From contig NC_002689.2 in the NCBI RefSeq assembly GCF_000011185.1, positions 744,001 through 808,000 on the forward strand: a stretch of DNA of 64,000 nt. The letters run 5' to 3'. The notes under the pieces were generated by a model that did no database searches, was not told the origin of the DNA, and was given only the letters and a program-made list of their open reading frames with translations. Below are positions 24,171 through 31,828 of this stretch, one piece after another (the first letter of the stretch is position 1; each line of letters opens with the position of its first letter). Origin of the DNA: Thermoplasma volcanium GSS1. GTDB lineage: Archaea; Thermoplasmatota; Thermoplasmata; Thermoplasmatales; Thermoplasmataceae. Made by a program: the position numbers and the translations under genes.

Positions 24171-25271
24171 ATGGATCGCAGGGATATACCTGGATTGGTA
24201 TTTGGACTGTTTTCGATCGTCCTGTCAATAGGGGTTCTTATTTATTACTTACCGGATATAATCTACAAGGCAAGCATTATAGCTGAGATGCCATCGGCGT
24301 ATTATGCGCTTTTATCTTTTAAGGTAAATTCTTTAGAAATCTATACATTTACGATAATTTCGATAATAGTGCTTCTGATATCAATAATATCTTTGCGAAA
24401 ATTCAATGCTGATAAGACAACATCTTTCTCCAAAATCGGTGGAAACAAGTTTTTCTGGTATCTTTCAATATATGTATTCTTTGATCTTCTCCTATCTTTT
24501 ATAATTTCAAGCATATACCCATCCTACGGTATAACCTCAATCAATTCCTATCCTCAGTTCCAACAGGTTTACTATTATTCAGTTTCTGTAATATTTGACA
24601 CTATACTTTTTCAGGCTATACCAATAACTGTTATGCTCGGTATATATGCGATAGTAGCAAAAAAACCCCGCATAATGCTGAATTCATCAGGACTTAATTG
24701 GAATATAATTGGCGCCATAGCTATTATATCTGCAACCTATTCTTCTATAATTTACATATTGTTAGGTCAAAACATCTTCTATACCATATCCATCTATGTT
24801 TCTTCCATAATTATGACTATAATATACGTTAAGTTTGGTTTTCTAAGAGCGTTTCTTGGAAATTTCATAATTAGCATGGTAAGTTACCTAAGTGTGCTCG
24901 TCCATACTTATCCTCTGTACTCTCTTCTGTTCACATTGTATCTATTCGCCTGGGCCTCTGTAGGCATATATTATATGTTCGTAGAAAATGAAGCAAGACA
25001 TACTGTTCAGAAATCTCAGAAGCAGAAAGAAGAAGTTAAGAGAGAGCCTGTTCAAATTCCGATGCTTGGCCCATCTGACCTATTTATAAGGAGCGTTTGT
25101 CCCGAGTGTGGCGGGGTTGTATTTCACGTTAAAGAGGATATGTCTCTAGAATGTGATCACTGCCATCATGTCTTAGCACCGGAGGATGTAGGGCCATTTA
25201 ACGTTAAGGTAGATATATATGGGCGCCTGCACGATCATTTTTACGAGCCTACTGATATAGGTACACAATAA
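24171..25271 (+). CDS. Multi-pass membrane protein with C-terminal zinc-ribbon domain
   Basis: A 366-residue protein with about eight transmembrane segments in residues 5-285. These are followed by a short basic linker (HTVQKSQKQKEEVKREP) and a soluble zinc ribbon, SVCPECGGVVFHVKEDMSLECDHCHH, in the last 60 residues. I do not recognise the membrane domain. It starts 110 bases from the divergent pilin gene, so the two may share a promoter region, but nothing in the sequence shows they act together. Confidence 0.75.
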   Translation: MDRRDIPGLVFGLFSIVLSIGVLIYYLPDIIYKASIIAEMPSAYYALLSFKVNSLEIYTFTIISIIVLLISIISLRKFNADKTTSFSKIGGNKFFWYLSIYVFFDLLLSFIISSIYPSYGITSINSYPQFQQVYYYSVSVIFDTILFQAIPITVMLGIYAIVAKKPRIMLNSSGLNWNIIGAIAIISATYSSIIYILLGQNIFYTISIYVSSIIMTIIYVKFGFLRAFLGNFIISMVSYLSVLVHTYPLYSLLFTLYLFAWASVGIYYMFVENEARHTVQKSQKQKEEVKREPVQIPMLGPSDLFIRSVCPECGGVVFHVKEDMSLECDHCHHVLAPEDVGPFNVKVDIYGRLHDHFYEPTDIGTQ

Positions 25272-25332
25272 GTTAAAGAAAGTTTTTTAGATAGTGAAAA
25301 AAGGTTCATATTCCTTAGCTACATACGGTATT

Positions 25333-25512
25333 ATGTCTTATGTTTTCAGATGCCGTGATTACGGTTTTGATTGCAGCTATACCCTTGAGGAGGAACGAAA
25401 GGAGGACATACCGCCTATGGTTAAGATGCATCTCAGGTATGCCCATGGGATTTATGATTTTACAGATGAAGTTAGGGACAAAGTTCTTTCAGTTATTAAG
25501 GAAAAGAAATAG
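25333..25512 (+). CDS. DUF1059 small metal-binding-like protein
   Basis: About 60 residues from the ATG at 25333. The protein MSYVFRCRDYGFDCSYTLEEE, with MVKMHLRYAHGI near the C-terminus, has the two cysteines and the HxxxxHG of DUF1059, common in haloarchaea and Thermoplasmata. The cysteines and histidines could bind a metal. No role is known. A GTG at 25294 would add 13 residues that do not fit the family. Confidence 0.75.
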   Translation: MSYVFRCRDYGFDCSYTLEEERKEDIPPMVKMHLRYAHGIYDFTDEVRDKVLSVIKEKK

Positions 25513-25524
25513 GTATATCTATAT

Positions 25525-26235
25525 TTAAAAGTTTATATTTATCCGGTTAGATACTTTACCCCTGGCTTTTGTGGTCTTATATTTTATTTCTCCAACTTCT
25601 CCTGTATTCTTTACGTTTACGCCGAATTCTGGTTGATCAGGAAGGCCAGGAACCCTCATTATCCTGATCTTTTCATCATCAAAAGTCTCATGAATACTCA
25701 TTTTCTTGAGATCATCCCTGTTTAGGAACTCATCCATTGATATATAGGAAAACGATATTTCCAGATTCTGTTTTACCATCTCATTTGCCTTGGACATTAC
25801 CTCTGTTATTTCCTCTTCTGTGATATCTGGTTTCTCTATGTCAATCCAAGCCCTATCATCGTATGTCTCGTTGACCCTGCATGAAACGCCCCAGAGTTTA
25901 TATGAGAGGCCGGATATTAGCCTTAACGCCGTTCTAAACCGCATGTGTACATACCTCTTTTCCCAGTCTATCACCTGTTTAACGCTTTTTCCTACAAGTC
26001 CTTGAGGATAAGTATCCATGGAAATCAAGTGTATGTATTCACCATCGTATATCGTATCAACGATTTGATACTCCTTTCCCTCAATTATTACTTTTCCTGT
26101 ATCGTTTGGTTCTCCAAAGAGTGTAGGATAGAAGATAGATTTATCAACTTTCATATCTGTAAATTCAACAAACAGTGCAGTTCCTATTCCTTCAATCTTG
26201 TACGCGTCATTGAGATACAATGCTTCTGTCTTCAT
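25525..26235 (-). CDS. alaX: AlaX-like alanyl-tRNA editing domain protein lacking zinc ligands
   Basis: A 236-residue homologue of free-standing AlaX proteins, which hydrolyse mischarged Ser- or Gly-tRNA(Ala). Family features are TEALYLNDAYKIE at the start, FYPTLFGEPNDTGKV near 36-50, and the C-terminal VKNTGEVGEIKYKTTKARGK. The two zinc motifs are altered: the HTALH motif reads RTALR, and CGGTH reads EFGVN, so all four ligands are absent. Editing activity by the known mechanism is unlikely. The ATG at 26235 is chosen because the family begins there; an ATG at 26277 adds 14 residues. Confidence 0.75.
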   Translation of the reverse strand: MKTEALYLNDAYKIEGIGTALFVEFTDMKVDKSIFYPTLFGEPNDTGKVIIEGKEYQIVDTIYDGEYIHLISMDTYPQGLVGKSVKQVIDWEKRYVHMRFRTALRLISGLSYKLWGVSCRVNETYDDRAWIDIEKPDITEEEITEVMSKANEMVKQNLEISFSYISMDEFLNRDDLKKMSIHETFDDEKIRIMRVPGLPDQPEFGVNVKNTGEVGEIKYKTTKARGKVSNRININF

Positions 26236-26325
26236 ACTATTCGTTATCGCACGTTCTTTAAATATTATCCGTTCCATTTGATTGTAAATGGCATAAGGTA
26301 ATATATCGATTAAATATCCCTTTAC

Positions 26326-29050: not shown

Positions 29051-30358
29051 TTAATACCAGCCCCTTACTTTCATCGCATCAGCGACTTTCTTTACTGCAA
29101 TCACGTACGCTGCAGTCCTAGGATCTACATGGTATTTGTCCATAGTATCAAGGACTTGCCTTGCAGCTTTAGTTATTTTCTGATCTAATTTGTCGTAAAC
29201 CTCCTCTGTAGTCCAGTATTCTCCGTAGTTGTTCTGTACCCACTCGAAGTATGAAACTATGACACCTCCTGAGTTAGAGAGAACATCTGGTAGTACTAGT
29301 TTTCCTTTCTTGTATAGAATCTCATCTGCCTCTGGCGTTGTAGGTCCGTTTGCAAGTTCGAGTATTATCTTTGCTTTTATCTTGTCAGCATTCTTTTCAG
29401 TTATCTGTTCTTCAATGGCTGCAGGTATTAGTACATCCACATCAGATTCAAGTAGTTCTTCATTTGTAATAGGTTTCGATCCAGGGAAGCCAACAACACT
29501 CCCTATTTTCTTGCTCCAAGCCAACAGATCATCGAACTTGAATCCATTTTCACTGTAAATACCTCCCTTTATATCTGAGACCGCAACCACCTTTGCACCG
29601 AACATTTCCTGTACGAACTTTACAGCGAACTGACCTACATTTCCGAAACCCTGAACGGCTACGCGTGCCTTGGAGAGATCGAGGCCGATCTTCTTAGCGC
29701 CTTCCCTAAGGACGAACATCCCGCCCTTACCAGTGGAATCAAACCTACCTAACGAACCACCGACTTCTAAAGGCTTACCAGTTATTACATTAGCAGCAGA
29801 ATGTCGTACGATGTTTTCATACTCATCCATCATCCATGCCATAATTTGTGGATTTGTGTTGACGTCTGGAGCCGGTACATCTACTTCAGGGCCTATGAAA
29901 TCTGCTATTGCCCTGATGTAACCTCTGCTTAACCTCTCAAGTTCTCCCTGGCTGAGCGTTGATGGGTCGCATATTATGCCCCCCTTCGCGCCGCCATACG
30001 GTATGTCAGCTATGGCGCACTTCCAGGTCATCCACATGGAAAGCGCCTTAACCGTAGATAGAGTCTCCTGGGGATGGTACCTAATCCCTCCCTTAGCCGG
30101 ACCCCTAGCGATGTTGTGCCTTACTCTAAACCCAGTGAAAACCCTAACCTTCCCATCATCCATTTTCACTGGTATGCTCACCTGCAAAATTTTCTGAGGT
30201 GAACTTAATATCTCTAGAGCCTGCTCGTCTAGGTTCAAAACTTTTGCGGCTTTGTTTAACTGCTTTAGGGCTATCTCAAAAGGATCTTCTTCAATTTCCT
30301 CCTTTACTGGAGCCACTTGTTCCTTGGCGATCTCAAGTGGATCTGCTTTTCCAGACAT
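29051..30358 (-). CDS. gdhA: Glutamate dehydrogenase (paralogue 1)
   Basis: Interconverts glutamate and 2-oxoglutarate plus ammonia with NAD(P). The 435-residue protein has the substrate lysine motif [12 protein letters not shown] near 84, the catalytic [13 protein letters not shown] near 119, [19 protein letters not shown], and the Rossmann loop [14 protein letters not shown] near 243. Its N-terminus is about 16 residues longer than paralogue 2, with an acidic insert ([11 protein letters not shown]). It is followed 210 bases upstream by the second copy on the same strand, and the two share long identical DNA blocks. Confidence 0.95.
29302..29500. repeat. 199-bp block identical to 30820-31018
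   Basis: Within gdh paralogue 1, 199 consecutive bases match paralogue 2 at 30820-31018 without a mismatch in my reading, while flanking coding sequence differs by many synonymous changes. Shorter identical runs occur near 29577-29636 and 29805-29860. This patchiness points to gene conversion. Confidence 0.85.
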
Positions 30359-30568: not shown

Positions 30569-31828
30569 CTAATACATCCCTCTTGCCTTCATGGCGTCTG
30601 CGACCTTTTTTACCGAGATTACGTATGCAGCTGTTCTTGGATTTATTTTATACTTATCCATGGCATCAAAGACCTCGTGTGCAGCTTTGGTCATCTTCTT
30701 GTCTAGTTTTTCGTAAACCTCTTCTGCAGTCCAATATTCTCCGTAGTTGTTCTGTACCCACTCGAAGTATGAAACCGTTACGCCCCCTGAATTTGAAAGA
30801 AAGTCTGGAAGGTCAAGTCTTCCTTTCTTGTATAGAATCTCATCTGCCTCTGGCGTTGTAGGTCCGTTTGCAAGTTCGAGTATTATCTTTGCTTTTATCT
30901 TGTCAGCATTCTTTTCAGTTATCTGTTCTTCAATGGCTGCAGGTATTAGTACATCCACATCAGATTCAAGTAGTTCTTCATTTGTAATAGGTTTCGATCC
31001 AGGGAAGCCAACAACACTGCCTGTTTTCCTCTTGTGATCGAGGAGTGCTTCGTAGTTTATTCCATCTGATTTAAATATGCCTCCTTTAGTGTCTGAGACC
31101 GCAACCACCTTTGCACCGAACATTTCCTGTACGAACTTTACAGCGAACTGACCTGCATTTCCGAAACCCTGAACGGCTACAGTAGCTTTTGAAAGATCGA
31201 GACCTACTCTCTTTGCTCCTTCCCTCAAAACGTACATGCCCCCCTTCGCTGTCGCATCGCCTCTTCCTTCGGAACCTCCAATCTCTAAGGGCTTACCGGT
31301 TATTACGTTCGGTGCAGAATGTCGTACGATGTTTTCATACTCATCCATCATCCATGCCATAATTTGTGGATTTGTGTATACATCCGGCGCCGGTACATCT
31401 ACTTCAGGGCCTATGAAATCTGCTATTGCCCTGATGTAACCTCTGCTTAACCTCTCAAGTTCTCCCTGGCTCATTGACTTAGGGTCGCATATTATGCCCC
31501 CCTTCGCGCCGCCATACGGTATGTCAGCTATGGCGCACTTCCAGGTCATCCATGAAGCTAAGGCTTTTACAGTGGAAAGAGTTTCGTCAGGATGGTATCT
31601 TATCCCACCTTTTCCAGGGCCTCTTGCTGTATTATACCTTACTCTGAAGCCGGTAAACACTTTTATTTTTCCGTTATCCATTCTCACTGGAATGCTAACC
31701 TGCAAGATCTTCTCCGGTTGTCTTAGTATTTCAAGAGCTTGTTCATCTAGGTTCAACACCCTTGCAGCCTTATCCAGTTGCTGCAGTGCCATCTCAAATG
31801 GATCTATACTTTCTGGCATATCATTCAC
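30569..31828 (-). CDS. gdhA: Glutamate dehydrogenase (paralogue 2)
   Basis: A 419-residue glutamate dehydrogenase with the same active-site motifs as the neighbouring copy ([39 protein letters not shown]). Differences are concentrated at the N-terminus, around residues 205-260 ([20 protein letters not shown]) and the C-terminus. Its own promoter region holds an A/T-rich box near 31835-31845 and the palindrome at 31875, so it may be regulated separately from copy 1. The two copies may form mixed hexamers; that is inference. Confidence 0.95.
30820..31018. repeat. 199-bp block identical to 29302-29500
   Basis: The partner of the gene-conversion tract in paralogue 1. It encodes the C-terminal half around [18 protein letters not shown] and the [14 protein letters not shown] region of both enzymes. 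Confidence 0.85.

Follow-up and report, generated by a model that had tools for sequence, protein, structure and literature searches.

The gene at 25525-26235 of the window (the whole stretch of 64,000 nucleotides of Thermoplasma volcanium GSS1 DNA that was analysed) belongs to an old group of AlaX-M paralogues in the Thermoplasmataceae. It is AlaX by descent, but its ligand positions and the curated family cut-off both exclude an AlaX editing enzyme. The former active-site pocket appears from the alignment to have been rebuilt rather than ruined, and the pairing of the gene with one coding for a membrane protein is the main clue to its function. Our preferred reading, put forward tentatively, is that the product is a metal-free AlaX paralogue which binds tRNA ends or aminoacyl-tRNA and acts with the membrane partner, where we infer the metal state, the tRNA binding and the partnership. 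A protein that scores to an AlaX model is easily annotated as an alanyl-tRNA editing protein. The features referred to below are the following:

25525..26235, minus strand: zinc-less AlaX-M paralogue, 236 aa
25921..25935, minus strand: RTALR, residues 101-105, replacing the HxxxH ligands (R101 in 55/55; residue 105 F/K/R/Y)
25615..25629, minus strand: EFGVN, residues 203-207, replacing C/DxxxH (residue 203 D/E in 55/55)
26257..26265, minus strand: TATA-like box ATATTTAAA, 30 nt upstream of the start codon (26235)
24171..25271, plus strand: partner, a multi-TM membrane protein of 366 aa with about 8 hydrophobic segments and a C-terminal zinc ribbon
25098..25163, plus strand: zinc ribbon of the partner, CPxC...CxxC, Cys 310, 313, 328 and 331 (all four invariant in 20 partners)
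L003:1477-2205, same genome: canonical AlaX, HTAIH...DGGTH

The first-pass annotation of the window had reported this reading frame with its strand and coordinates and the motifs RTALR and EFGVN, and all of these are as reported. The frame can also open upstream, at 26277, but the TATA-like box would then fall inside it; because this conserved box lies 30 nt before it, the ATG at 26235 is the better start, and the annotated length of 236 aa is preferred. The box is kept at four other Thermoplasma loci, the sequence farther upstream diverging, and it makes a leaderless transcript beginning at the ATG likely. The genome carrying the gene comprises 1,584,804 bases, with the zinc-less gene at position 769,528 and the canonical AlaX at 206,643, so the two are not neighbours. 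An AlaRS with the ligands H-H-C-H is encoded as well, as is a third tRNA_SAD protein, its size that of a ThrRS. At 25294-25512, in the gap that separates zinc-less AlaX from the partner gene, lies a gene for a small DUF1059 protein, which among the loci compared was found at this place in the genus Thermoplasma alone. The window also contains tandem glutamate-dehydrogenase-like genes (29051-30358 and 30569-31828) with 346 identities over 435 aligned columns.

The loss of the zinc site is common to the whole group. In the alignment of 55 zinc-less orthologues the position of the first ligand histidine is Arg in every copy, and that of the second, residue 105, is occupied by Phe (20 copies), Lys (16), Arg (13) or Tyr (6) and never by His, which shows that the replacement of HxxxH by RTALR is not due to chance. 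The third position, residue 203, is Asp or Glu in all 55 copies, and the fourth, residue 207, is Asn, Gln, Tyr, Leu or Asp, with His present in 6/55 and lost in 49/55. In the canonical relatives (n = 40) the four positions are invariantly H, H, D and H. The earlier claim that all four zinc ligands are absent holds always for the first two histidines and mostly for the fourth, but an acidic residue is kept at the third position, where Glu is a conservative change since the nearest zinc-type relatives have Asp there. CGGTH, which had served as the reference motif for that claim, had to be abandoned: all 40 canonical Thermoplasmata AlaX examined have DGGTH, with Asp and not Cys as the third ligand. 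The AlaRS of the same genome, unlike the canonical AlaX there, keeps Cys at this position.

No substitute set of His or Cys is present among the conserved columns of the zinc-less orthologue alignment, and the ligand pattern of AlaX-M, HxxxH with C(D)xxxH, is not found in the 236-aa protein. Because three of the four positions are non-ligand across nearly the whole family and no His/Cys substitute cluster is available, standard zinc AlaX activity is excluded, as the first-pass annotation had argued. The two observations that it had named as contrary to its view, another His/Cys set and ligands kept in orthologues, were both sought and neither was found, while the alignment check against related Thermoplasmata proteins showed the loss to be shared by the orthologues and under constraint. 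A compensating salt bridge between residues 105 and 203 was also considered (Lys or Arg with Glu in 26 copies, Phe or Tyr with Asp in 26, and Arg with Asp in 3), but the tree has one independent change only and so gives no evidence of contact.

The distribution of the gene was examined with a protein query against 400 genomes of the class and with a profile of the 55 copies against 117 searchable genomes of the order and 390 of the phylum. With the profile, the zinc-less copies score 200-410 bits versus at most about 187 for everything else. Of the 77 Thermoplasmataceae genomes searched, 69 have an orthologue, among them all that are at least 90% complete; the eight genomes without it are 62-86% complete, and one genus, represented by two incomplete genomes, lacks the gene. 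Outside the family, the profile search detected it in 0 of the order's 40 remaining genomes, and a search of viral contigs gave no relative of the zinc-less group. In the tree the orthologues form one clade with a support of 100/100 and a long stem of 0.98, and a duplication within the family is not rejected by the AU test (p 0.175). Shared ancestry with archaeal AlaX is established by the tree and by the match to the genome's own canonical AlaX, with which the protein is 34% identical (E 3e-37).

The frame, noted as intact in the first pass, is intact in 54 distinct orthologues from most genera of the family, and the gene is under purifying selection: dN/dS is 0.05 for the sole unsaturated Thermoplasma pair, synonymous sites being saturated between most Thermoplasma species, and 0.04-0.08 for canonical AlaX. 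Over the same 105 genome pairs the identity is 51.5% for the zinc-less protein versus 54.9% for canonical AlaX. A sequencing error or a pseudogene was rejected, as the same losses occur in all of the 54 distinct orthologues.

The sequence surrounding the ligands had been described as conserved, which is true of the scaffold common to canonical AlaX (W91, R94, M98, D132, G205, K225-G226 and R231) but not of three other elements: the glycine-rich GGGQP motif of AlaX-M is reduced, most copies keeping its last Gly only, the universal Arg of the AlaX RxD motif is replaced by Trp130 in 55/55 zinc-less copies, and the canonical Thr119-Gly120 has become Arg120-Ile/Val121. Position 40, which is Gly in 40/40 canonical copies, is mostly Asp, Glu, Tyr or Phe. 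The zinc-less copies possess the invariant new residues R101, R120, T124 and W130 in the old active-site region as well as an invariant EFTD motif (residues 24-27). By homology, R101, R120, W130 and E203 would lie close together.

The protein scores 155 bits with the AlaXM model NF040865 (E 1.9e-45; cut-off 300) and 12.3 bits with PF07973 (cut-off 24); a Birnavirus Pfam match (E 7e-4), below its own cut-off, was taken as chance. The AF2 model produced with a seven-sequence alignment has a pLDDT of 88.7 and a pTM of 0.88 (pLDDT 36 from the single sequence), and its predicted fold is that of AlaX-M and the AlaRS editing region, with PDB matches at E 1e-16 to 4e-22. The top match is an AlaRS editing region (TM 0.88), and AlaX-M matches with a TM of 0.81 (P. 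furiosus 9iuw, TMt 0.89; P. horikoshii 2e1b, TMt 0.87). Lower matches are AlaX-S and ThrRS editing domains and then, weakly, a mitoribosomal large-subunit chain, which we take to be L39; the mitoribosomal matches have an rmsd of 8-9 and come via the editing fold shared by ThrRS and AlaRS.

The partner gene adjoins the zinc-less AlaX gene in 23/23 neighbourhoods examined and, according to the profile search, lies at most 2 kb away in 66 of the 69 genomes with zinc-less AlaX, the median gap being 49 nt. Two of the three exceptions come from one genus (one of them with a diverged adjoining copy), and in the third the AlaX gene is at a contig end. The two genes point in the same direction outside the genus Thermoplasma, where they are usually operon-like, and are convergent inside it. 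The partner itself is a fast-evolving protein. In one of the two genomes of the genus lacking zinc-less AlaX, a partner gene (L157:4657-5811) is located in an intact contig stretch without an AlaX-like gene, between ribosomal L10e-like and MFS-like genes; since this genome has the partner alone, the latter is not always dependent on zinc-less AlaX. The search for a phage or defence link of the locus gave no informative matches.

Homologues of the partner in another family of the order match PF02517 above its cut-off (E 1e-12 to 1e-14), have the same zinc ribbon and possess the EExxxR, AH and HxxD motifs. At the aligned positions EExxxR, FxxxH and HxxxN/D are present in the four homologues of that family compared and absent in 20/20 partners, and PF02517 matches none of the partner proteins searched. 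When the TM part without the ribbon was compared using hhalign, the two were aligned in register with a probability of 89% (E 2e-6), the shuffled and reversed controls giving 0.1-0.2%. The partner is probably a CPBP-derived pseudo-protease whose catalytic residues have been lost, an assignment held with moderate confidence. In the related family, the CPBP protease genes L158-L161, whose products likewise carry the zinc ribbon at their C-terminus, are found near a SIS-domain-like gene.

Because both HxxxH residues are lost everywhere and the canonical AlaX and AlaRS are present, standard zinc editing is untenable as the role of the protein. With the editing-domain fold kept and the zinc site lost, zinc-dependent deacylation of Ser/Gly-tRNA(Ala) would be impossible for the paralogue, and this reaction would still be handled by the canonical AlaX and the AlaRS of the same genome. 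In the position of the zinc site there is now a strictly conserved one containing Arg, which suggests that a defined ligand is bound in a metal-free manner: the former active site, rebuilt from invariant Arg101, Arg120, Thr124 and Trp130 and an acidic residue 203, probably binds a ligand without metal, the likeliest candidate being the tRNA 3' end, charged or uncharged. Contacts with tRNA may be altered too, since the Arg of RxD and the glycine-rich motif are changed. The gene pairing with a membrane protein suggests a membrane-associated role, and it is reasonable to suppose that zinc-less AlaX works with its membrane neighbour, the simplest arrangement being a membrane-associated adaptor for tRNA binding or sensing. 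Besides the possible change in tRNA contacts, what counts against this explanation is that the partner also occurs in a genome without zinc-less AlaX and that in the genus Thermoplasma the genes are a convergent pair and not an operon. A speculative extension, to which we give little weight, is that the AlaX-type and the CPBP-type relative both lost catalytic metal sites and now form one non-enzymatic apparatus in the Thermoplasmataceae, in which the membrane protein would be coupled to an AlaX pocket for tRNA ends and would serve to sense aminoacyl-tRNA or to tether translation at the membrane.

The same conserved pocket could belong to an enzyme. R101, R120, T124, W130 and D/E203 are strictly conserved and not relaxed, which fits an active pocket as well as a binding one, and aminoacyl-tRNA deacylases that work without metal are known from other folds (INS, DTD), so the paralogue might still be a metal-free deacylase acting on another aminoacyl-tRNA, its invariant arginines reading a new, for example acidic, aminoacyl group. 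We consider this unlikely, given that both His residues of HxxxH are gone, that the sequence reveals no catalytic residue to replace them and that no synthetase gene is linked to the locus in the neighbourhoods. A non-catalytic subunit which pairs with and regulates the canonical AlaX or AlaRS is quite unlikely: nearly every genome of the family with the zinc-less copy also has canonical AlaX, and the editing-impaired ThrRS T2 of Anabaena pairs with T1 (PMC4787780), but the gene adjoins that of a membrane protein and not canonical AlaX, and conserved pocket residues are unexpected in a purely structural subunit. The mitoribosomal fold matches raise the idea of a structural or ribosome-associated adaptor like L39 that links translation to the membrane via the partner. 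MRPL39 resembles the ThrRS N-terminal region and is found at the polypeptide exit site (PMC4099522), and the partner, which carries a zinc ribbon, is itself a membrane protein; still, the matches are weak and explained by the shared editing fold, and this role is improbable. That the gene is decaying or the annotation an artefact, as the loss of three ligand residues might suggest, is scarcely credible and is refuted by conservation, namely the intact orthologous frames, the strong purifying selection and the conserved promoter.

The family shows that a conserved free-standing AlaX can lose its zinc site altogether and persist with the pocket remodelled. It also connects a tRNA-editing fold with a membrane protein, a combination that would be unusual. 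Both paired genes are directly testable in a cultivated archaeon. In the literature searched, which did not extend to most subscription journals, there was no paper on this paralogue of Thermoplasma and none on an AlaX-M that is free-standing, zinc-less throughout a family and accompanied by a membrane protein.

Among the known systems, the AlaX-M proteins (P. horikoshii 2e1b, P. furiosus 9iuw; NF040865) resemble the zinc-less protein in their full-length fold, similar length, W-R-M helix and KG..R C-terminus, whereas in the latter the ligands are gone except the acidic third one, the Arg of RxD is Trp, and the score is half the NF040865 cut-off. The partner is probably related to the CPBP/Rce1-like proteases (PF02517), with which it shares the zinc ribbon of the other-family homologues and TM regions aligning in register, but not EExxxR, both His motifs or a match to the family model. 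The paralogue T2 of Anabaena ThrRS, with an impaired editing site beside a competent copy, differs from zinc-less AlaX in having kept its motifs and residual activity, its defect being an insertion (PMC4787780). MRPL39, a relative of the ThrRS N-terminal region with a non-synthetase role near the membrane (PMC4099522) and thus a precedent for recruitment of such a domain, is unlike it in being a ThrRS-derived ribosomal subunit with only a weak fold match. Another precedent is the AlaX-like domain of Plasmodium falciparum TrpRS, in which none of the four zinc ligands is left; it is part of an N-terminal region that the enzyme requires to bind tRNA, and has been proposed to function in tRNA binding and not editing (PMC3680381). 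This domain is eukaryotic, of the AlaX-S type and fused to TrpRS, with the replacements D, S, N and V, whereas the zinc-less protein is archaeal, free-standing and of the AlaX-M type, has an invariant Arg and is paired with a membrane protein.
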